IMG/VR virus record: IMGVR_UViG_3300017963_000705
Location: 1-25,598 of that record
Strand: one strand, 5' to 3'
Source: a virus
Length of the DNA stretch: 25,598 nucleotides
The position numbers and the translations under genes were made by a program. Below the pieces are notes generated by a model. The model did no database searches, had not been told where the DNA came from, and saw nothing but the letters and a program-made list of their open reading frames with translations. Positions 5,549 to 20,696 of the stretch are shown here, in pieces (position 1 is the first letter of the stretch; the number at the start of each line of letters is the position of its first letter).

Positions 5549-7618
5549 ATGAAAATTTCAGAAGGAAGATTAAAAGAAATCATTAAAGAAGAATTATTAG
5601 TTATGAAGCTCAATAGAAAGATCGTGGTTGAGCACAAGAAACTTGCTTCTGAGAGAAAAGATTATCTCTCTATGATTGCTGAAGAATATGCAAAGCTAGA
5701 GCGCGGTGAAGATTTTGATGTTTCCACTCTAGAAGAAGGCATCTGGGACAGTATTAAATACTATGTTGGCAAGCTTGGCTCTTTGGAAAAGGGCGGTAAG
5801 ATATTTGGTGACAGAAAAATGCGCCATATTAAAGCCGTTGATAAGCTAGAGGCTGCAATTGAAAAAGCAGGCAGTTCTGTTATCAAAGATTTAAGAAAAA
5901 ATATTGAAGAAAAATACAAAGAATTTCCTAACATGAAGGACAAGCCAGAGTTTTTGAATGCACTTTATGAAATTGCTGCTTCATACGATGCGATTGACGA
6001 AGCAGTAAAAAAAGGCGAAATGACTGCCGATGCAGCCAATGGCGTTGTTGAGGCTTTAAGAGAATACGTCAAATACTTGCTTGATTATCAATTGGCTGAT
6101 GTCTACAAGCATTTCACTGAAGGCAAGGAGATAGAAGAAGAAGTTGGTAAAGGTGGTGCCCCCGTAGATGATGAGCTTGAGCAGGCTGCAAATCAAAAAA
6201 CTTTCACTAAACGCGGAGTAAAGGGTGATGCTGTAGACTCAGCGACACTTGATGGTCTTGCGAGCAATAAACTCCCCGCTATCCTTGGATTAACCGGCGC
6301 AGCGGCTGTATTGGCAGGTTTATTTGCAGCTTCCCCGCAGGCTCTGTCAGCCTTGAAACAGCTTAGAGGACTTAAAAATGCAGAACAAATAACCACAGGT
6401 ATGAAAAAAATAACAAAGACATTTGGACCTGCTGATGGCGAAGGCTTCGTACAAATGGTTGGCAGGCTTACAGCGGGCGATCCGGGCGCTTTTGGTCCAA
6501 ACACAGACCCGAATGTGTTTTTCAAGGCTGTTAAATCTTTGGGGATAGATCCAAACAATCCTACACAATTTTTCCAGCTTGGTGCTGATCAGGGTGCTTA
6601 CGCCCAAGCAGTAAAAAGTGGTGCTAAAACTCTTGGAGAAATGTTCCCTGCATCAAATAAAGATTTTTACTTGGACAAGGGCGCAAAAGCTACATCGCAG
6701 ATAGTCCAATCAGTAACCAAAAATCTTGGCACTCTCGGTGCTGGTGGTGGTGCGGCAGTTGCAGCAGGGCAGCTTGCAGCCGCAAGCACTCTCGCAACCA
6801 CACTTGGTATCGGGCTTGCCACTGCTGGCGCAGCAGTCAAGCTAATCAGAATGAAAGGGCAAAAGTCTTCCCGTGCTCAACTATTAAAAGATTTATCAAA
6901 GGAATTACAGCCATTTGAAAACACTGAGGTTGTTGAACCACCCGCAGAGACACCTCCTACAGATCCATCTCCTACAGATCCACGCGCAGGGGATCGATCT
7001 CGGGCGGCAGGTCCACCTCCTACAGATTCGCCTCCCACCGAACCCGTAAAATATGAGAAGCCTGAAAAGCCATACGAATTCCCACTCATGGATGTTGAGA
7101 ATGCTATTATCAAATTTACTAAAGACAACGGAATGGATATGGATGAATCCGATGTCGAAGACTTGGTAGGCAGAATTGAAAGTTGGATGCAAAGTGCTCG
7201 CGAGCGCGGCGCAGATTACTTTGATATTGATGATAGAGACTTTATGAGACTTGGAGAAGGAGAAACAATAGTACAGAAGGGTACCGGTCGCGCTAAACTA
7301 GCTGGCTCTAGACCGAAAAGAAGAAGATACAAGAACAAAGATCCAAGAATTGCAATCAAGAAGGGTGGCCGCTCACGTCGGTCCATGTCACTCTCACGCT
7401 ATCTACACAGACTTTTCTCTATTGGGAATGATCAGGGTCGCCCAGAGTTCTTAGCAGGTCTTGACAACAAACAGCTTAGAAAACTCAAAAATGCAATCGT
7501 CAATATGGTTTACAAAGAACTTAGTAAACAAGGTCCGTTGGTTAAACAAGAGGTACAAAATGAACCGCTTCTCGAACGTTGGCAAAAAATTGCCGGTATC
7601 AGCAAGAAGGTTCTATGA
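5549..7618 (+). CDS. Large putative internal head/virion protein
   Basis: A 689-residue protein of unrecognised family. The N-terminus (KISEGRLKEIIKEELL) is a short charged amphipathic helix like prohead-targeting sequences, and TLEEGIWDSIKYYVGKLG near 60-77 contains an L-x-E site suited to gp21 cleavage. Two hydrophobic Ala/Gly-rich stretches (about 244-262 and 400-430) could enter a membrane. A Pro/Thr/Asp-rich linker (about 468-500) is encoded by imperfectly repeated DNA (6952-7045). The region around 580-620 is strongly basic (RPKRRRYKNK, KKGGRSRRS), suggesting DNA contact. Together these fit a DNA-associated protein packed in the head and perhaps ejected, which is inference. It follows gp21 by 3 bases, and its stop overlaps the next start. 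Confidence 0.7.
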   Translation: MKISEGRLKEIIKEELLVMKLNRKIVVEHKKLASERKDYLSMIAEEYAKLERGEDFDVSTLEEGIWDSIKYYVGKLGSLEKGGKIFGDRKMRHIKAVDKLEAAIEKAGSSVIKDLRKNIEEKYKEFPNMKDKPEFLNALYEIAASYDAIDEAVKKGEMTADAANGVVEALREYVKYLLDYQLADVYKHFTEGKEIEEEVGKGGAPVDDELEQAANQKTFTKRGVKGDAVDSATLDGLASNKLPAILGLTGAAAVLAGLFAASPQALSALKQLRGLKNAEQITTGMKKITKTFGPADGEGFVQMVGRLTAGDPGAFGPNTDPNVFFKAVKSLGIDPNNPTQFFQLGADQGAYAQAVKSGAKTLGEMFPASNKDFYLDKGAKATSQIVQSVTKNLGTLGAGGGAAVAAGQLAAASTLATTLGIGLATAGAAVKLIRMKGQKSSRAQLLKDLSKELQPFENTEVVEPPAETPPTDPSPTDPRAGDRSRAAGPPPTDSPPTEPVKYEKPEKPYEFPLMDVENAIIKFTKDNGMDMDESDVEDLVGRIESWMQSARERGADYFDIDDRDFMRLGEGETIVQKGTGRAKLAGSRPKRRRYKNKDPRIAIKKGGRSRRSMSLSRYLHRLFSIGNDQGRPEFLAGLDNKQLRKLKNAIVNMVYKELSKQGPLVKQEVQNEPLLERWQKIAGISKKVL

Positions 7619-8329: not shown

Positions 8330-8731
8330 ATGTCAACGTATAATTACACACCAGGGCTCGGGAACGCAGCCTCATTTCAAGTATCAGGAGTTCCATATGT
8401 CACAGGGGCGCTCGACTTGTCAAGTGGTAATGTTTCCCTTACGTTTCCTTCTGTAACAAGTTGGATTTCTATTAGTGTTGCCGATAATGCTGTATGCCAT
8501 GTGGGCTTCTCGTTAAACGGCGTTCTAAATGCAAACAAGTTTACAATTCAAGGTGCCGTGGTAACCCCAAAATTTGACATTAAGGCTACACAACTGCATT
8601 TATCAGGAGCCTCTGGTGCTGTTTCAGTCATGGCTGGATTGACGCATATTCAAAATGAAAAAATTGACAATATTGCCGTCTCTCCTTCTGGCTCTAACTG
8701 GTCTGGCTCTCTAGCAGCTCTTGTGGGGTAA
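8330..8731 (+). CDS. Small beta-rich structural protein, unrecognised
   Basis: A 133-residue protein rich in Ser, Gly, Val and Ala with alternating hydrophobic residues, which predicts a beta-sandwich. It has no signal peptide or membrane segment. It contains one or two Cys and begins behind GGAG in acggagaatcat. It opens a new unit after the hairpin/box at 8266-8314 and is followed 6 bases later by a gp14-like neck gene. Its size and strand-rich composition would suit a capsid decoration or fibre-accessory protein, but I see no family motif and assign no function. Confidence 0.68.
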   Translation: MSTYNYTPGLGNAASFQVSGVPYVTGALDLSSGNVSLTFPSVTSWISISVADNAVCHVGFSLNGVLNANKFTIQGAVVTPKFDIKATQLHLSGASGAVSVMAGLTHIQNEKIDNIAVSPSGSNWSGSLAALVG

Positions 8732-8737
8732 TAACCC

Positions 8738-9247
8738 ATGTCTGATCCAAAGAACAAATGGACGCAACCTGATGCGCCACCCCCGCCAATGTTCTTTGGC
8801 CAAAAAGAGCGTGACCTTGTAAAACAAGTTAATGATGAGTTAGCTGAAAGAGTTGTTGGACAAACAGTTGCTTATTATCCTATAAGCATTGAGCACTCTA
8901 ATTTTAATAAAACATATGGAGAAGCAATAGACAAAGTTACGCTTCCGCCTGTTCGTGTGTTTGCTTACGTTGTTGTAGAGAATGAGCAAACAAACCAAAA
9001 GTATGGATACGAATACCAATCTAAACTAACAGTTAATTTTCATCGCCGCCGCCTAACAGAAGATCAAGATCTTTTTGTTCGTGCTGGTGATTTTGTTCAG
9101 TATGGTGATTTGTTTTACGAGATTGTAAAAACGTATAACGACACAAGATATTACTTTGGTCAAGTAGATCACAAGTTTCAGATAAGCGCCGAATGTGTAA
9201 GAGCACGAGAAGGAACTTTTAGAGTTATTGATAGTGTTGATAGATAA
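8738..9247 (+). CDS. gp14: Neck protein, gp14-like
   Basis: The T4 neck proteins gp13 and gp14 seal the filled head and create the tail-docking site. This 169-residue product is shorter than T4 gp14 (256), but its second half follows the gp14 pattern in order: a strand containing EYQSKLTVNFHRRRL, then RAGDFVQYGDLFYEIVKTYN (gp14: GDLIY...LFEI), then a YFGQ segment and a final strand KFQISAECVRAREG. The Pro-rich N-terminus (PDAPPPPMFFGQ) looks unstructured. It lies before the fibre genes, far from the gp13-like gene at 15.5 kb. The match is by pattern, so a generic head-closure/connector protein is the alternative. Confidence 0.55.
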   Translation: MSDPKNKWTQPDAPPPPMFFGQKERDLVKQVNDELAERVVGQTVAYYPISIEHSNFNKTYGEAIDKVTLPPVRVFAYVVVENEQTNQKYGYEYQSKLTVNFHRRRLTEDQDLFVRAGDFVQYGDLFYEIVKTYNDTRYYFGQVDHKFQISAECVRAREGTFRVIDSVDR

Positions 9248-9294
9248 ATCATCTAAGCCCAGACAGACTTGCTTTGAGTTTTTGACTTTGACCA

Positions 9295-9304
9295 ACTATT
9301 TATG
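9295..9304 (+). promoter_or_regulatory. Candidate late-promoter box ACTATTTATG
   Basis: In the 77-base gap before the fibre gene; its C is 29 bases before ATG 9325. I see no good hairpin directly upstream of this one. Confidence 0.5.
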
Positions 9305-9324: not shown

Positions 9325-10878
9325 ATGTCATGGGTATTTGGACCGGGAAGCGGTGGCACCCCCGGAGGCGCAAATGGAGATATACAGTTTAACAGCAGCG
9401 GATCTTTTAGCGGATCTGCGTTATTAACTACAGACGGTGCAGGAAACTTATCAGCATCCGCAAACATATCAGCATCTGCCTTTTATGGCGACGGCTCTAA
9501 CCTAACTGGCGTCACAGCATCAGCAGTTCAAGTTGCTGACGGTCCAGAGTTCTCTCTGCAGTTTAGATTTGACTCTCCTGTATCTGGGGATCTAAGTGGA
9601 TCAGCTGATCTAACTTGGAATACGGGCTCGAACGATCTTTTAGTTACTGGTAACGTTCGCGTTCAGGAAGATTATGAGTTCTACGGCGACCTCCAAGGCG
9701 CCATTCGATTCCCGGCACAAGTAGATGAAGTTGGCGGCATCACTAGAGGTCAGGTAGTTTACATTAACGGTATTTCGGGTCAGACCCCAACAGTTGGTTT
9801 GGCTGCCTGTGACGATGCTAGCAAGATGCCTGCTTTTGGTCTAGCAGGAGAAACTGCCGCGAACAACAATGATATTCAGATTGTAACTTTTGGGTCTATC
9901 AAAAATCTGGACTTAACAAGCCTATATGACCAAACATTCGCGGTTGGTGATATTTTGTATGTTCAGACCGGTTCCGGCGGCAATGCGGGTAAACTAACAA
10001 ATGTCGCCCCCACTGGCTCGGGTAATCTCCTACAGAACATGGGTAAGGTTATGCGCAACGGCGGCGGTGGCGATGCGCAAATCAAAGTCGGTGGCGCCGG
10101 CAGAACAAACGCAACACCAAACTTGGATAAAGGATATATATTTGTCGGGAACGAAACAGACCAAGCAATCCAAGACAGCACAATCTTTGTTTCAGCCTCG
10201 GCCAATAGAGTTGGTATCAACAACACAAACCCAGACCATACTCTTACGGTAGGGGGCGATATCTCGGGCTCAGGGAACATCTCGGGATCAGGCTTGTACG
10301 TAGAAGACGCTTTTGTGTCTAGTGTGCCGGCAGACAGAGTATTGGTATCAACCACTAACGGTCAAATCACAAGTTACTCTCCATTCACATTTACTTCTGA
10401 TGTGTTGGCAGTTCCAACAATTACAGCATCTGTTGGAGTGATGGTAACATCTTCTACCAATGGGTCTATCAATATTGGCGAAGGAATAAGCTATGTATTT
10501 GATGGAGTTAATCGTCTTGATGTATTTGAAAATGAATTTAGGATAAACAAGACCAATTTCTATCAAGGTGTCTCTGGAGAACAGACAAGCAACTTTAATA
10601 TTCGCGATGCACAAGTTTTTCTTGTTGACACCAACAGTTCAGTTGTTACCGGCACACTTCCTGGCGTAAATTCTTCAGATGATTATGGTATTACATTTAT
10701 TATTAAAGACTCCGGAGGAAACGCTGGTACAAACGATATTGTTATTGAGCCATCTGGCTCACAAAATATTGATGGCGGTACCGCTGCTAAGATAGCGACA
10801 AACTATGGAGCTATGACTGTGGTGGCTATTTCGTCTTCAACAAACGGTCTCGGCTGGGCAATTGTTTCGGCAACATAA
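9325..10878 (+). CDS. Tail fibre / receptor-binding structural protein
   Basis: A 517-residue Gly/Ser/Thr/Asn-rich protein typical of trimeric beta-structured phage fibres. Near the N-terminus NGDIQFNSSGSFSGS and SASAFYGDGSNLTGV are motifs common in fibres of marine and other phages. A middle domain (about 125-250, with GGITRGQVVYINGISGQ) is probably a globular beta domain. Repeated SGSGNISGSG and NPDHTLTVGGDISG elements near 305-325 also suit fibre shafts. The C-terminus ends LGWAIVSAT; the DNA for this end is duplicated 865 bases downstream. ATG 9325 has GGAG 14 bases upstream. The receptor is unknown, and decoration on head or tail cannot be told apart from sequence. Confidence 0.75.
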   Translation: MSWVFGPGSGGTPGGANGDIQFNSSGSFSGSALLTTDGAGNLSASANISASAFYGDGSNLTGVTASAVQVADGPEFSLQFRFDSPVSGDLSGSADLTWNTGSNDLLVTGNVRVQEDYEFYGDLQGAIRFPAQVDEVGGITRGQVVYINGISGQTPTVGLAACDDASKMPAFGLAGETAANNNDIQIVTFGSIKNLDLTSLYDQTFAVGDILYVQTGSGGNAGKLTNVAPTGSGNLLQNMGKVMRNGGGGDAQIKVGGAGRTNATPNLDKGYIFVGNETDQAIQDSTIFVSASANRVGINNTNPDHTLTVGGDISGSGNISGSGLYVEDAFVSSVPADRVLVSTTNGQITSYSPFTFTSDVLAVPTITASVGVMVTSSTNGSINIGEGISYVFDGVNRLDVFENEFRINKTNFYQGVSGEQTSNFNIRDAQVFLVDTNSSVVTGTLPGVNSSDDYGITFIIKDSGGNAGTNDIVIEPSGSQNIDGGTAAKIATNYGAMTVVAISSSTNGLGWAIVSAT

Positions 10879-10933
10879 AAGGATTATAGAATGGGATTAG
10901 TATTAGAAAATGGTGTATGGCAATTACAGGCAG
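10848..10933 (+). repeat. Direct repeat copy 1: fibre end plus adhesin start
   Basis: 86 bases covering the last codons of the fibre gene (LGWAIVSAT, stop), the ribosome site AAAAGGAT and the first 14 codons of the next gene (MGLVLENGVWQLQA). It matches copy 2 at 11713-11797 with 5 substitutions and a 1-base gap by my alignment. The two copies flank the GC-rich gene body. Confidence 0.92.
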
Positions 10934-11688
10934 ACACCGCACGCTCGCTGCTCCTCGCAGACCTCAACTTTGCGGCGCTCGCCTCTGCATCGTGGTCTGA
11001 CGGGAAGCAGACCGTCGACGGCATCGACGTCGCCGTCATCAACACCGCGCGCATGGACACAATCGGGCCGAACGGCACGACCGGCGTGGTGATGGACAGC
11101 AAGACCGGTACCACGCACGAGGCGGACAACCGCGACACGGGTCGGCTTCACGTCGATCTCGCGGAGGTGTTCTCGGCCGGGGCGTGGTACCTCACCAAGC
11201 CCATGTGGGTCACGCTTGAGTTCGCCGCCGCGCTGGATCCCGGGACTACGATCACACGGCAACTGGATCTCGCGGCCGACACGGGTACGGGCTCGGGCGG
11301 CTCGGGGTCGTCCGCGACTCGGTTCTGCTCCGCGCAGCTCGTGGGGACCGCGTCCGGCGCGGGGGTTCGCGGCTTTCGGTCACAGGCTAGCGCCGGCGAT
11401 TTCGGCTCCGCCGCCGAGCTTATGCAGCCGTCGTGGATCGGCATGCTGATCGAGCCTGTCGCCGTGCAGGCTTTCGGCGGGACCGGCACCCCCCCCTCGG
11501 CGCCGTCGCTCGCGACTCACGCCAGCCCTTCGCCGTCGCTGAACGCCACGGGCGCACAGGACCCCGATTGGTTCACGCCGGAGGCGTTCGCGGCCAGCTC
11601 GCGGACGTTGTGCATCGCGGTGGCGGGGAAGTGGTCGACCGCGCCGATTCTGAAGCGACTGCGCTTCTACACGCTCGATCCGTCCTAG
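10891..11688 (+). CDS. Adhesin-like protein with foreign GC-rich body
   Basis: A 265-residue protein. The first 14 codons (MGLVLENGVWQLQA) are AT-rich like the phage and nearly identical to the start of the gene at 11755. From about base 10934 the coding DNA becomes GC-rich (I counted 45 of 60 G+C in 11281-11340). The body looks beta-rich, with DTGRLHVDLAEVF, WVTLEFAAAL, a Gly/Ser linker near 128-136, WIGMLIEP...GGTGTPP and a final RLRFYTLDPS. The W-I-G ... G-G-T order and the last strand also occur in the 11755 gene, so the two are probably distant homologues of one lectin-like fold. The ribosome site is AAAAGGAT. Position behind the fibre suggests a receptor-binding tip; that is inference. 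Confidence 0.72.
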   Translation: MGLVLENGVWQLQADTARSLLLADLNFAALASASWSDGKQTVDGIDVAVINTARMDTIGPNGTTGVVMDSKTGTTHEADNRDTGRLHVDLAEVFSAGAWYLTKPMWVTLEFAAALDPGTTITRQLDLAADTGTGSGGSGSSATRFCSAQLVGTASGAGVRGFRSQASAGDFGSAAELMQPSWIGMLIEPVAVQAFGGTGTPPSAPSLATHASPSPSLNATGAQDPDWFTPEAFAASSRTLCIAVAGKWSTAPILKRLRFYTLDPS

Positions 11689-11707
11689 ACAGCCGGGGGC
11701 CCGTAGA
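10934..11707 (+). mobile_element. GC-rich horizontally acquired segment
   Basis: Base composition switches abruptly at about 10934 and returns at about 11708, while both neighbours are AT-leaning (I counted 23 of 60 G+C in 12061-12120). The segment contains the body and stop of one adhesin gene plus about 19 bases. It has no transposase, recombinase or terminal inverted repeats; it is simply enclosed by direct repeats, which points to homologous recombination and not transposition. Confidence 0.8.
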
Positions 11708-11743
11708 AATGATCTCGGCTGGGCAATTGTTTCGGCAACATAA
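11708..11743 (+). pseudogene. Relic of a fibre gene 3' end
   Basis: This reads NDLGWAIVSAT and a stop in frame, the same as the fibre gene's last residues (GLGWAIVSAT). It has no coding body of its own; upstream lies the unrelated GC-rich segment. It is the scar left by duplication or by recombination with a related phage. Confidence 0.75.
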
Positions 11744-11797
11744 GAGATTATAAAATGGCATTAGTATTAGAAAATGGTGTATGGAAGTTACAGGCAG
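11713..11797 (+). repeat. Direct repeat copy 2: fibre-end relic plus adhesin start
   Basis: 85 bases matching copy 1 (10848-10933). It includes a relic of the fibre gene's last codons and the start of the second adhesin gene. One missing G changes the ribosome site from AAAAGGAT to TAAGAGAT, probably weakening it. Confidence 0.92.
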
Positions 11798-12504
11798 GCG
11801 GGAGCAATGTCACAACTGTTGCACAGACCTTGTCCCCCTCAGCTGGAACTCCATCTAGCATTGCAGATGGTGCTACATTAGATGCTGGGATGTTAAGTGG
11901 GTGGGAAGTTAAAGATCCAAATGGGGTTTTTAACGCCATAACAGATGATGGCTCCACATGCAATATTAAATTTGATCAGGGGACCGGTGGAACCTTCGCG
12001 CCGACCAACGGGAACGGATTTTTAACTAATGGGAAAATTCAATACCCCAATCTTCTTATGGGGGATTTTGATTTTGCCATATACACCGATAACCCAGGAA
12101 GTGTTGCGAATTTATATACAGAGATCGCTATAATGGCAGGCGGCGGCAACGCGGTTAATGAAGCGCACTGGCTAGGTCATAGGTACGGAAGATGGTCCAC
12201 GGCGAACGCCAAATACTATGGAATGGGCGCCTTCGCCTCCCGCGCACTTATACACAACGGAACTTCAAATTTAGCCAGAACCACAGCAAGATGGATTGGT
12301 ATTAAGCGTGTGAGCCAGACAGTTTCGTTCCGTGAAGGCGGCACAGCCGCAACGCCAAGTTGGACCGACACCGACGAGCTCTGGGACGCCGCCGGCGGTG
12401 CCGTCCGAATCGCAATATCATTTTATGCTGGCTCCGCAACTGAGGAGACTCACAGGCTTTATAAAGTTATTCTCAATGGCTTTGAGTACACGGCTACTCC
12501 ATAA
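11755..12504 (+). CDS. Adhesin-like protein, paralogue of the 10891 gene
   Basis: A 249-residue protein starting MALVLENGVWKLQA, shared with the previous gene, followed by an AT-rich body typical of the phage. It is rich in Gly, Thr, Ala and aromatic residues, predicting a beta-sandwich. WIGIKRVSQTVSFREGGTAA lines up with WIGMLIEPVAVQAFGGTGTP of the upstream protein, and both end in a strand of the type RLYKVILNG / RLRFYTL. No catalytic motif is seen. It is probably the resident adhesin or fibre tip, the GC-rich gene being the newcomer. The weak ribosome site (TAAGAGAT) may lower its expression. Alternatives are a virion decoration protein. Confidence 0.72.
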   Translation: MALVLENGVWKLQAGGSNVTTVAQTLSPSAGTPSSIADGATLDAGMLSGWEVKDPNGVFNAITDDGSTCNIKFDQGTGGTFAPTNGNGFLTNGKIQYPNLLMGDFDFAIYTDNPGSVANLYTEIAIMAGGGNAVNEAHWLGHRYGRWSTANAKYYGMGAFASRALIHNGTSNLARTTARWIGIKRVSQTVSFREGGTAATPSWTDTDELWDAAGGAVRIAISFYAGSATEETHRLYKVILNGFEYTATP

Positions 12505-12588
12505 TTAAACTTTTCATACTGTACAAACGAGTACCTTAACTTTACGCTTCTTAAATAAAACAGTTTTCGTCATTTAGAAAAATAAAAC

Positions 12589-12631: not shown

Positions 12632-13681
12632 ATGTCTTCACTATTAGAAGAGGCGATCGTGGACGCCAAAGCCCTTAAGGAAGCAGCATTGAAGAATGCT
12701 GAAAACGTTGTATTGGAAAAGTATTCTGGTGAAGTTAAGAAAGCCTTAGATACTTTGCTAGAACAAGAAGAGCCCGCAGCCGAAGACGATACACTATCCG
12801 AGTTTACAAACGAAGTTCCTTACGCATTTCAGAACGAAGAGTTAGACGCTCCAGAAGATGATGAGATCGTTGAGATCGATTTTGATGCTCTCAAGGCTCG
12901 TTTAGAAAAGGAAGATGAAGTTGTTGAGGAAGAAGACCTTAACGATGCTCTAAAGATGGCTGACGATATGGTTGGTGGCGAGATGGCCCCAGAGCTTGAA
13001 GCTTCTGCCGAGGAAGATACTGCTGAACTAGGTGCAGAGCCAGTCGAGCCCCCAGAAGAAGACGATGATCTCAACTTGTCCGAAGACTTTATTAAAGAAC
13101 TAGTAGAAGAGCTTGTTGTTGATATGGATACATCACCAGCAGGTTTCTCTTCACTCGGTGGTGCTTACAATAGCGTGATGCAAGCAAATAATGATGCTAT
13201 TGCAGCTGCTAAGAAAGCACACCTTGAGGAAGAAGAGGAAGAGGAGATTGAAGAAGATACCGCACCAGATGTTGTGCCAGTAGAACTTCATGAAGCAAAG
13301 ATCTCCGAACTTACAGAATCTAACAGAGAGCTTCGTGCTCTCATTGTTGAAGCCAAGGATCAACTTACAAAGTTGAATCTTGATAACGCCAAGCTTGTTT
13401 ATCAAAACAAGGCTTTGAATAGCGCCTCCTTGAATGAGCGACAAAAAGCACAAATTGTCGAAGCTGTTCAATCTGCCAATTCTGTTGAAGAAGCAAGTAT
13501 GATTTTTGAAACAATTCAAAACGCAGTGGGGAACACTCCTGATCAGAGAAAACGTCCACAAACACTACGTGAAGCGGTTCAAAGACCTACGTCGCTTTTG
13601 ATCAATTCTAAGAGAAACAACGAGGCAACTAAGGATCCAGCAATGGGTCGTATGCTGCGTTTAGCAGGTTTGAATAAATAA
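12632..13681 (+). CDS. gp22: Prohead scaffolding core protein (gp22-like)
   Basis: The main core scaffold, on which gp23 assembles and which gp21 later degrades. The 349-residue product is extremely acidic and Glu/Leu/Ala-rich, with long helices. The C-terminal third (about 225-290) is a coiled coil containing ISELTESNRELRALIVEAKD, and the extreme C-terminus AMGRMLRLAGLNK resembles the gp22 end. It lies immediately before the major capsid gene, as in T4. I prefer ATG 12632, giving MSSLLEEAI with GGAG at 12619-12622, over the TTG at 12617 that would add five residues. Several L-x-E sites would allow gp21 digestion. Identity rests on composition, tail motif and synteny. Confidence 0.88.
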   Translation: MSSLLEEAIVDAKALKEAALKNAENVVLEKYSGEVKKALDTLLEQEEPAAEDDTLSEFTNEVPYAFQNEELDAPEDDEIVEIDFDALKARLEKEDEVVEEEDLNDALKMADDMVGGEMAPELEASAEEDTAELGAEPVEPPEEDDDLNLSEDFIKELVEELVVDMDTSPAGFSSLGGAYNSVMQANNDAIAAAKKAHLEEEEEEEIEEDTAPDVVPVELHEAKISELTESNRELRALIVEAKDQLTKLNLDNAKLVYQNKALNSASLNERQKAQIVEAVQSANSVEEASMIFETIQNAVGNTPDQRKRPQTLREAVQRPTSLLINSKRNNEATKDPAMGRMLRLAGLNK

Positions 13682-17834: not shown

Positions 17835-20696
17835 ATGTCAGTTAAGAATTACCGATTTGTATCCCCAGGCGTTTTCGTCAACGAAATTGACAACTCCCAA
17901 CTTCCTGCTTCCCCAGCCGGAATTGGTCCAGTTATCATTGGTCGCGCCGAGAAGGGACCTGCCTTAAGACCAACAACAGTTAACTCTTTTGAAGAGTTTG
18001 TAAATGTTTTCGGCACCCCGAGCCCCGGTAGTACCGGTGGTGATGTGTGGCGACAGGGCGCCAACACGACAGCTACGACTTATGGCATGTATGCCGCACA
18101 AGCTTATCTCCGAAATAGCTCTCCTTTAACTTACATTCGTTTGCTTGGCGCTGAGTCGGACAACGTCACTGACGATCAGTCCGGTCTTGATGAAGCTGGC
18201 TGGACATTGGGAGGTGAAGCTTATGGATTGGTCCTCTTTACAAGAAACTCCTCCAGCGCTCCCGGCGCCCTTAGTGTTTCTGGTGCTTTGGCAGCTGTTT
18301 TTTACACAGATGCTGGAACAGATGTAAAATTAAGCGGCTCCATTGTTTCTTCATCAGCTGGTGCTGGAACCACAGGCAACACAGCATTTTCTAGTAGTGT
18401 TGATTCGCTTACGGGGTCCGACGCTTTGTTTACATCCGCAACTGGCGGAACAAACAAAGAGTTCACTGCATTGATCGTTTCAGGCTCGGGACAGGAAAAG
18501 ATTACATTCAACTTTACAAGAGGCGATTCGAAGTACATTCGTAAAGTATTTAACACAAACCCACAGCTAACAAATACTAGAATCACCGATGCTTCGCAAA
18601 GAAAGAGTTACTTCCTTGGTGAGACCTTTGACCAGCACATTGATGAGATTATCTCTACTCCTTCGAACGGTGTGGCTGCGGCAGTAGTCAAGGTCAGACT
18701 CCAAGGTGGCACCGTCACCGGCGATGATTTCAAGTATCAGCTGCAGCCAGCTGAAACACCATTCATTATTGCCTCAAAGTTGGATCCATCTGAAACTCCA
18801 AAGAAGTTGTTCAAGTTTGTTGCAAGAGGCGAAGCCGGTGATTGGACAAGCAGCAATCTCAAAATTTCCATTCAGGATATCAAGCGCTCTCCAAGCGAGG
18901 ATTCGGATTATGGTACTTTCTCTGTTGTAGTGCGACACATCTCCGACAGCGACAACGTTGTTCGTGTTGTTGAGCAGTTCAACAACTGTGATTTGAATCC
19001 TAACTCCCTCAACTACGTTGCGCGCAAGATTGGTGATAAGTACGAGTCTTGGGAAGAGTCAGACAGACTTTACAGAGAGTATGGTAACTATCCAAACAAT
19101 TCTGCTTACATTTACATTGTTATGAATTCCGATGTAGACGCTGGGTTCACAAACGCAGCACTTCTTCCTTTCGGTTTCGAAGGCATCGTAAAGTACACAG
19201 ATGAAGCTTCATTGGGTTCCGGCTCCGCTACTACAGAAGGTAATTGGATTACTGGAAGTATTGTCAACCCAATCAGAGATGGCGAGTACAGCTCGGTTGC
19301 AGATTACCAGTTGAATTCTCCGTTCATTATCTCTGGTTCTGGCTTGACTGCCTCTGTTGCTTACCCACGCCCACTACTGCGTGCTAACGCTACACAGGGC
19401 AACCTTGCAAACCCAACAGATGCTTACTTCGGCTTGCAGACTGCACGCGACGGTGGAAGCACAGTGTACGCTCGCTCGGTAGGCGATATTCTTCGTCCTC
19501 GCGGCGGGGTCGTTGGGCAGTTTACAGCAGACCCTGCTCTTAGCGCCTCGCTATCACCAACATTCACACTTGATGATATTTCAGGCTCTGGTGTTTGGTC
19601 CGAAGGCTCCTCTACTTCAAATTCATTGACATTCGTTAATGGAGCAATTTCTGGTGTACTCGACGCAGGTTATGATCGTTTCACAGTTCCGCTTTACGGT
19701 GGTTTCGACGGTCTTAACATTACTGAAATGGATCCTTTCACATCTGCAGCAATGCCTGGGGCTCCATCCGATACAACAAGCTACTCTTTCTTCTCTATCA
19801 GAAGAGCAATCGATTCTGTTGCAGACCCAGAGGTTGTTGAAATGAATTTGGCTGCCATTCCAGGTCAGACTCAGGATGGTCTCACAACTCACTTGGTAAG
19901 AACTTGTGAGGATCGTGCAGATGCTCTCGCAGTTATTGACCTTCCATCGGCATTCCAGCCGAGAGAAGATAGCACTTCGATTGATCGTCTAAACACGCCT
20001 TCTACCATTACGACATTGGTTAATGGTCTGCGCGATAGAAACCTCAACTCTTCTTACGGTTGTGCTTACTATCCATGGGTTAGAGCAAGAGACACAATCA
20101 ACGGTGCTTTTGTATGGCTTCCGCCATCCGTAGCAGCTATCGGTACATTCTCTAGCTCACAGCGTAGAACACAGGTTTGGTTCGCACCAGCTGGTTTCAA
20201 CCGTGGTGGACTAACAGAAGGCTCTGCCGGCATCCCAGTTATTGATGTAGCTCACCAGCTACGCCGCAAGGATCGTGACGATCTTTATGGGGCGAACATT
20301 AACCCAATCGCTAAGTTCCCAGCTGAGGGTGTTGTAATCTTCGGTCAGAAGACACTACAAGTTACGCCTTCTGCTTTGGATCGCATTAACGTCCGACGTC
20401 TAATGATCTTTGTCAAGAAGCGCATCTCCCAGATCGCTGCTGGCTTGCTCTTCGATCCAAACGTTCGGCAGACTTGGAAGCGATTCACAGCACAGGTTAA
20501 CCCATTCTTGGCTGACGTTAAGACAAACTTTGGTCTTTCCGATTACAGAGTTGTTCTTGATGACACAACCACAACTCCTGATCTTGTAGATAGAAACGTT
20601 CTATATGCGAAGATCTTCTTGAAGCCAACAAGAGCAATCGAGTTCATTGCGATTGATTTCAACATCACAAGAACAGGTGCATCGTTTGACGATTAA
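17835..20696 (+). CDS. gp18: Contractile tail sheath protein (gp18-like)
   Basis: Subunit of the sheath, whose contraction drives the tube into the cell. The N-terminus YRFVSPGVFVNEIDNS is the classic sheath start, followed by GPVIIGRAEKGP. The conserved C-terminal domain is complete: INVRRLMIFVKKRISQIAAG, then the WKRFTAQVNPFLADVKTN region, then a strand ending IEFIAIDFNITRTGASF. At 953 residues it is far longer than T4 gp18 (659). The extra length falls in the middle (about 110-680), in Ser/Gly-rich blocks that would be surface domains on the sheath. It ends just before a strong hairpin. Function is certain; the role of the extra domains is not. Confidence 0.95.
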   Translation: MSVKNYRFVSPGVFVNEIDNSQLPASPAGIGPVIIGRAEKGPALRPTTVNSFEEFVNVFGTPSPGSTGGDVWRQGANTTATTYGMYAAQAYLRNSSPLTYIRLLGAESDNVTDDQSGLDEAGWTLGGEAYGLVLFTRNSSSAPGALSVSGALAAVFYTDAGTDVKLSGSIVSSSAGAGTTGNTAFSSSVDSLTGSDALFTSATGGTNKEFTALIVSGSGQEKITFNFTRGDSKYIRKVFNTNPQLTNTRITDASQRKSYFLGETFDQHIDEIISTPSNGVAAAVVKVRLQGGTVTGDDFKYQLQPAETPFIIASKLDPSETPKKLFKFVARGEAGDWTSSNLKISIQDIKRSPSEDSDYGTFSVVVRHISDSDNVVRVVEQFNNCDLNPNSLNYVARKIGDKYESWEESDRLYREYGNYPNNSAYIYIVMNSDVDAGFTNAALLPFGFEGIVKYTDEASLGSGSATTEGNWITGSIVNPIRDGEYSSVADYQLNSPFIISGSGLTASVAYPRPLLRANATQGNLANPTDAYFGLQTARDGGSTVYARSVGDILRPRGGVVGQFTADPALSASLSPTFTLDDISGSGVWSEGSSTSNSLTFVNGAISGVLDAGYDRFTVPLYGGFDGLNITEMDPFTSAAMPGAPSDTTSYSFFSIRRAIDSVADPEVVEMNLAAIPGQTQDGLTTHLVRTCEDRADALAVIDLPSAFQPREDSTSIDRLNTPSTITTLVNGLRDRNLNSSYGCAYYPWVRARDTINGAFVWLPPSVAAIGTFSSSQRRTQVWFAPAGFNRGGLTEGSAGIPVIDVAHQLRRKDRDDLYGANINPIAKFPAEGVVIFGQKTLQVTPSALDRINVRRLMIFVKKRISQIAAGLLFDPNVRQTWKRFTAQVNPFLADVKTNFGLSDYRVVLDDTTTTPDLVDRNVLYAKIFLKPTRAIEFIAIDFNITRTGASFDD

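Follow-up and report, generated by a model that had tools for sequence, protein, structure and literature searches.

Receptor-binding domains are known to be swapped behind conserved N-terminal anchors across phage families (PMC10408124, PMC10684548, PMC10579305). In the tailspikes directed against E. coli O-antigens, as described in PMC10408124, a conserved N-terminal part is followed by a swapped C-terminal body, transfer crosses genera and morphologies, and a conserved DNA motif at the end of the anchor (44 nt, mean identity 63%) is proposed as a recombination hot spot. According to PMC10579305, the otherwise dissimilar Alteromonas phages A5, V22 and P24 have host-recognition genes common to podo-, myo- and siphovirus morphologies, and PMC10684548 reports that receptor-binding proteins were the only ones to show recent mosaicism across different phage families or lifestyles. 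Here we analyse a related arrangement in an IMG/VR virus record (IMGVR_UViG_3300017963_000705), a stretch of 25.6 kb with T4-type structural genes that is called the window throughout. In it, a fibre-like gene is followed by two small genes which start with the same short anchor and carry different bodies, A and B, the first of them rich in guanine and cytosine (GC). It is probable that the foreign, adhesin-type body A was captured behind a docking anchor by a non-homologous join, and that the resulting cassette then spread.

Compared with the tailspikes of PMC10408124, the conserved part comprises only 14 residues at the gene start, it belongs to a separate small gene after the fibre, and the donor-type phage lacks the motif. 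Whereas the Alteromonas phages have a block of some ten genes in common, with proteins similar at about 41-96% (PMC10579305), a single domain with 95% DNA identity is found here behind a foreign anchor, and whereas PMC10684548 is a survey of reference phages, the phages considered here are uncultivated. The Far-T4 phages (PMC4360716) provide the nearest Gp23 relatives and a collinear T4-like structural module; the main text of that paper nowhere uses the word 'fiber', so that it contains no description of the locus by this term. The small anchor, the separate gene after the fibre, the paired types of fibre end and gene start, and a donor-recipient pair with a motif-free donor are what sets the present case apart. 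In T-even phages, the distal adhesin gp38 is a variable adhesin encoded by a small gene directly behind the fibre gene gp37, and the anchored gene of the window likewise stands directly downstream of a fibre gene. Family scans, however, gave no sequence relation to gp38, and the bodies found here include a concanavalin-A-like sandwich. Bodies A and B had no PHROG or Pfam match up to E = 1, and neither they nor the other bodies scanned matched the families of tail-fibre assembly chaperones.

All elements of the locus lie on the + strand. The fibre-like gene (9325..10878, 517 aa) is so named by us because of repeats in its protein, which ends in ...GLGWAIVSAT; its match to Chlorovi_GP_rpt was weak and below cut-off. 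Its last codons open a repeated segment, the first copy of which, J1 (10842..10934), contains the fibre end, a ribosome-binding site AAAGGA (10878-10883) and the 14 codons of anchor 1 (MGLVLENGVWQLQA, 10891..10932, 35.7% GC), so that the first anchored gene starts 12 nt past the fibre stop codon. Body A, a foreign GC-rich domain by composition (10933..11688, GC 0.69), and a spacer (11689..11706) lead to the second copy, J2 (11707..11797), the join to the fibre-end copy being placed at about 11703-11707. J2 is composed of a non-coding fibre-end copy, a ribosome-binding region and the 14 codons of anchor 2 (MALVLENGVWKLQA, 11755..11796), behind which stands the resident body B (11797..12504). 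Both anchored open reading frames (ORFs) are intact, with 265 aa for that starting at 10891 and 249 aa for that starting at 11755. The conserved landmark gene downstream (12638..13681) had no significant PHROG or Pfam match and is called gp22-like by us from its position before gp23.

The preliminary description of this DNA placed a GC-rich block right behind a 14-codon AT-rich gene start, and this is confirmed: a two-change-point fit sets the block at 10929-11703, with 69.4% GC against 42.0% in the flanks used, and its onset falls within codons 13-14 of the gene starting at 10891. The GC content of third codon positions (GC3) is 0.865 in body A against 0.21-0.47 in 14 other stretches measured, in line with the claim that the block is foreign by composition; the GC3 of the two anchors is 0.21 and 0.29. 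The enclosing repeats, said to match at about 80 of 86 positions, were also described correctly in substance, since 84 of 92 columns of J1 and J2, aligned over 10842-10933 and 11707-11797, are identical, with seven mismatches and one gap (E = 8e-33 against the whole window). A fresh duplication was considered for the two copies and rejected: they differ at 8/89 columns, while J1 and the copy in a related contig, L021, differ at 5/89. The 3' part of the window fibre gene (10444-10935) is 95% identical to that of L021.

Related contigs contain the same site without the block or with another body. In L011, L012/L020 and L013/L021, the fibre end is followed by a single anchor and body B, with no block in between, and this B has 86% amino-acid identity to that of the window. 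In L019, GC-rich DNA begins behind the fibre end and a single anchor (MALVLEDGVWKLQA) and extends as far as the intergenic region that precedes gp22, and body B is gone; L039 is a second contig of this kind, 99.85% identical. Since L019 groups with the B-carrying L021 in the gp22 tree (support 99/95, the window standing just outside), it has most simply replaced B. Positions 3126-4164 of L019 match positions 4985-6023 of L120 (3300034375_008236), a tailed-phage contig of 67.5% GC, with 94.9% identity over 1,039 gap-free bp, which bears out the proposal that bodies are swapped behind the anchor. This match opens at the last base of the anchor, spans the gene that follows and reaches a third. 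In L120, the captured domain constitutes the C-terminal half of a 509-aa protein, the N-terminal half of which resembles body B, and the VLENG anchor is absent from this protein. With an anchor-free protein in L120 and a match that sets in only where the anchor of L019 ends, the body must have entered L019 by a non-homologous join, and the idea that the anchor served as crossover site for the entry of bodies is not supported in this case.

A further piece of L019 (4194-4401) matches L120 at 90%, about 10.8 kb further along that contig; either the piece captured was originally longer and was trimmed afterwards, or the genes of the real donor stood in a different order. Between L019 and L120, the nonsynonymous (dN) and synonymous (dS) divergences are 0.0145 and 0.107 in the captured body, A', and 0.080 and 0.163 in the passenger gene behind it. 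These values indicate that selection has acted on the protein of the captured body in at least one of the two lineages. L120 itself has matches to tape-measure (1.8e-28) and tail-protein (7.9e-7) families and a weak one to terminase, and 12 of its 15 proteins scanned against PHROG had no match at all. We term it a GC-rich tailed phage and leave its tail morphology class unassigned, 'siphovirus' being not established. Searches of the phages collection with the DNA of the fibre-A-B region, body A, the L019 body and the capsid-like protein of L120 (our own label, with no family match) returned nothing.

Body A taken without its anchor is 30-31% identical to the L019 body when aligned. Among the loci fetched, its best match outside the T4-like clade is a C-terminal domain in the GC-rich phages L143 and L144, located in the same gene slot of the GC-rich group to which L120 belongs (31.6% over 247 aa for L143, E 4e-22 in that small set). 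In L138 and L139, which are relatives of L120, this slot holds a remote member of the body A family (for L138 and body A, probability 93% and 19% identity in the profile alignment), which means that the donor group, too, has a variable slot. From composition, homology and the precedent of L019 taken together, we infer that body A would have come from a GC-rich phage. As a separate observation, GC-rich phages fuse a B-like domain to a C-terminal domain (L120 4209-5738, L138 3920-5413, L144 5198-6410), and the C-terminal domain of this fused protein itself changes between close relatives. Just behind the body gene of L143 there is also a gene with the metalloprotease motif HEIGHNLGLGH (6937-7461; PF00413, matrixin, 2.3e-4, below cut-off), and L019 4139-4453 encodes a shortened passenger relative of this protease-like protein (40% over 87 aa, E 2e-17).

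According to the proposed scheme, the block would represent the body of a small adhesin-type gene behind the fibre gene of a T4-like phage. The 14-residue N-terminal anchor, a beta-hairpin in a low-confidence model, would dock the protein on the fibre tip or on the virion, with a swappable body behind it, and such bodies may bind surface sugars. Body A would have been taken from a GC-rich tailed phage whose own protein bears such domains C-terminally, through a non-homologous join at the end of the anchor of the kind observed in L019. A return join about 35 nt before the fibre stop codon would then explain why fibre end, ribosome site and anchor occur once more before body B; template switching, or repair with slip-back, could provide the route. 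J1 and J2 would later have drifted, or else the left flank was exchanged, and the A+B cassette would have spread among related phages by ordinary recombination, which one mosaic comparison supports. Two anchored bodies are now encoded by the phage.

The anchor peptide is found in related T4-like phages in the form M-A/G-LVLENG-V/I-W-x-LQ and close variants. A scan of viral_contigs for the anchor pattern gave 15 contigs. By this pattern, five of them carry a pair of anchored genes (A+B in four cases, C+C in one), and L027/L042 adds a sixth pair, in which the first gene has a looser anchor. A survey based on gp22 confirmed at least 449 relatives, of which 80 were kept and 66 of these listed; among the relatives listed, it added further forms of the slot. 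A short conserved 5' anchor had been claimed to head different bodies. Indeed, when relatives were searched for anchor-headed genes and the bodies that follow were compared, several classes emerged behind the same anchor, namely A/A', B, B', C, D and E. In profile comparisons, D is linked to A (84-96% probability), to C (93%) and to E (84%), whereas all probabilities between B and A, C, D or E are below 2%; B' is 33-36% identical to B. Family F was left out of these comparisons because one row has a stop codon in the chosen frame. Over 11 loci (55 pairs), the median nucleotide identity is 76% for the anchor and 36% for the body, with 56% for the fibre 3' part (45 pairs) and 54% for the 45 bp upstream of the start. 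Such a conserved island (76% versus 36%) could help the later spread of bodies between relatives.

The type of gene start also goes with the type of fibre end. Among 35 loci, the window and L021 included and with the window, L037 and L038 near-identical, all 11 VLENG-type genes directly after a fibre follow an end of the form W-x-[IV]-x-[SF] (9 distinct ends), and all five I-N/S-G-type starts follow fibres ending in YF[ND]P..TY[VI]E. L115, which has no ING motif, and L075, in which ING occurs late, have the same kind of fibre end as this second group and fit the I-N/S-G pattern poorly or not at all; these two were left out of the count, as were second tandem genes, the second gene in L097 and the later gene of L050. 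The pairing is a pattern and not a test, the rows sharing ancestry, and it is what a peptide docking on the fibre tip would be expected to give. Bodies of type E occur behind two very dissimilar starts, namely behind a VLENG-type anchor in L096 and behind an INGVEMANIK-type start in L104, L069 and L085. L096 and L104 have 85% DNA identity from the anchor/body border on and no match before it.

Body B is carried by the window, L021, L011 and L040, which all belong to one clade of the gp22 tree. This supports B as the older body and A as the newer one, as the preliminary description had suggested in speaking of old and new bodies. The closest relative of B without an anchor comes from L133, a phage of 67% GC, with 50% identity. 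B itself has 49.7% GC and a GC3 of 0.46, so if it came from a GC-rich phage, it would have arrived long ago. Its AlphaFold2 model, built from 10 sequences (mean predicted local distance difference test score, pLDDT, 75.5; predicted template modelling score, pTM, 0.80), is a concanavalin-A-like beta-sandwich. In a second look at structure matches, the best were sandwich domains of GH43 enzymes and GH16 laminarinases, the top one with Z 15.9 over 189 residues at 3.3 Å and 7% identity; the CBM2 module of the evolved Dit of phage J-1 (5ly8) also matches, with Z 14.7. A profile of B searched against PDB sequences found nothing. The lectin/glucanase-type fold that the model shares with these proteins shows no function, and receptor binding by the anchored bodies is plausible as a putative role.

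Could the block have arisen in another way? The sharp composition step and the flanking repeats resemble a misassembly, as if sequences of an AT-rich and a GC-rich phage had been joined in one contig, but the same structure with body A is present in four other IMG/VR contigs under different record names. Over the loci compared, three of these reach at least 99.97% identity with the window, and the fourth, L018 (3300029258_000823), differs from it elsewhere (92-96% identity over three aligned stretches) and carries its own in-frame 9-bp deletion in body A, next to a single substitution in the two anchored genes. Since the block occurs in three near-identical contigs and in the diverged L018, and since L019 and L039 show the same kind of event with another body, a chimeric join has next to no chance of being the explanation; the claim that the block is no assembly artefact thus withstood this comparison. 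It is also very improbable that a mobile element was inserted here with an unusually long target duplication, even though direct repeats enclose the block. Neither Pfam nor PHROG gave a match for the sole long ORF (265 aa), those in other frames (up to 113 aa) having not been scanned, no inverted repeat of at least 14 nt is listed at the block ends, and the repeat spans functional units, from the fibre end to the end of the anchor.

A further question is the role of the anchor. In the preliminary description, it was a homologous crossover site between anchor-bearing phages, and the window a recombination intermediate caught with both bodies, which is the same idea as the hot spot proposed in PMC10408124 from motifs beside the body. 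The anchor does form a conserved island relative to both the fibre 3' part and the body, and L096 and L104 are alike only from the anchor/body border onwards. Moreover, apart from two substitutions and the 9-bp gap, the window and L018 coincide over a tract at 10717-12523, while the fibre stretch just before it has 24 differences in 813 positions. Since positions 9000-9300 are also identical and the L018 contig ends at 12550, this comparison is a mosaic, and its simplest reading would be a recent exchange of the whole cassette. The tract starts, however, about 125 bp before the repeat and so outside the anchor. L120, the only donor-type relative found at the DNA level, has no anchor either, and L104 and its allies have an anchor differing from that of L096, so that their shared border does not result from anchor homology. 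A state of transition is not supported: all five contigs with A+B have the pair intact, and two other lineages also possess arrays of two genes (D+B' in L042, C+C in L052); the tandem pair looks stable as judged from these contigs. A crossover site that has left an intermediate is unlikely on this evidence. Anchors of 36% GC before a body of 69% GC might alternatively be kept only as AT-rich, unstructured starts that allow translation of GC-rich inserts, the peptide having no docking role. The chances of this are slimmer still, because the amino-acid pattern is kept before bodies of 44-50% GC (L052, L040, L044) and another class of fibre ends pairs with another start peptide. By comparison, the anchor is probably kept as a docking peptide.

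Capture behind a docking anchor nevertheless has to accommodate several points that weigh against it. The divergence between J1 and J2 (8/89 columns) equals that between J1 and L011, so the duplication is not fresh; it has to be older, or the left flank has to have been exchanged later. Searches of viral_contigs, genome_contigs and phages gave no donor DNA for body A, the closest outside relative being that with 31.6% identity, and neither body A nor its family turned up in genome_contigs. The A profile behind an A-C link of 81% included two remote rows, L138 and L062, which are 18-20% identical to A and match the four-row A profile at 93-94%: without them, the A-C link falls to 11%, while A-D stays at 84% and B is still apart from the rest. 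The direct A-E link is below 2%. The AlphaFold2 model of A, built from six sequences, is poor (mean pLDDT 35) and was not used for searches, and in the B model the anchor residues reach a pLDDT of only about 50, with a hairpin formed by strands 3-6 and 9-12. Finally, W-x-[IV] fibre-like ends in L092, L096 and L110 are followed by further fibre-like genes and no anchored gene, so a fibre end alone does not call for an anchor.

The locus offers a natural experiment: recipient, empty site and replaced site can be set beside a donor-type virus of 95% DNA identity, and about 25 points of GC separate the two sides. An indication is given of how small an anchor may be and still let a foreign body be accepted, and with the short peptides and fibre ends named here docking is directly testable. 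Exchange of such parts between T4-like phages and GC-rich tailed phages is suggested as well: the IMG/VR number stems 3300029258 and 3300032087, which we take to be sample numbers, occur in names of contigs of both kinds. In a broader and distinctly tentative model, the 14-residue hairpin could act as a universal plug for one class of fibre tips, such that a lectin-type domain joined to it in frame becomes a working adhesin. The I-N/S-G start would be a second plug, and bodies would be recruited from GC-rich phages by non-homologous joins, with two of them displayed; we are inclined to doubt this generalization in its full extent.

The recipient phage is of T4 type. Hallmark matches in the window comprise Portal_T4 (9e-80), the major capsid protein Gp23 (6e-72) and a tail sheath PHROG (3e-69), and the Pfam and PHROG scans gave a tape measure in addition to this contractile sheath. 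With 41-49% identity along roughly two thirds of the query, its Gp23 is closest to the proteins of an uncultured phage, Flavobacterium immuto phages, Microcystis phage Mel-JY01 and Rhodothermus phage RM378, which suggests that the window phage belongs to the Far-T4 group. The gene order is the fibre-like gene, the two small anchored genes, the gp22-like gene and then gp23. A small gene starting with M[ST]TYNY[TK]PGLGNAAS... precedes the fibre gene in the window (8330-8731), and the same gene stands behind the anchored genes in L014/L052 (L014 7938-8339).

Other parts of the structural module also vary between relatives. A 689-aa ORF without Pfam match (5549-7618) is missing from L018, which lacks about 2 kb (5563-7614) and joins 5562 directly to 7615; at this place, L012/L020 and L013/L021 carry some 390 bp of different sequence. 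Near position 13061, in the gp22-like protein, L021 and L011 have about 75 extra residues (EEGKDRFIIMKSSRALDDG...) that the window lacks. In the middle of gp23, the segment 14227-14650 has no blastn match to L011, L012, L013, L014 and L019, which span it, although its two sides match at 80-92%; it is a variable insertion in the capsid protein. Similarly, L020 and L021 match the sheath gene only on either side of 18158-18803, a variable stretch of the sheath protein.

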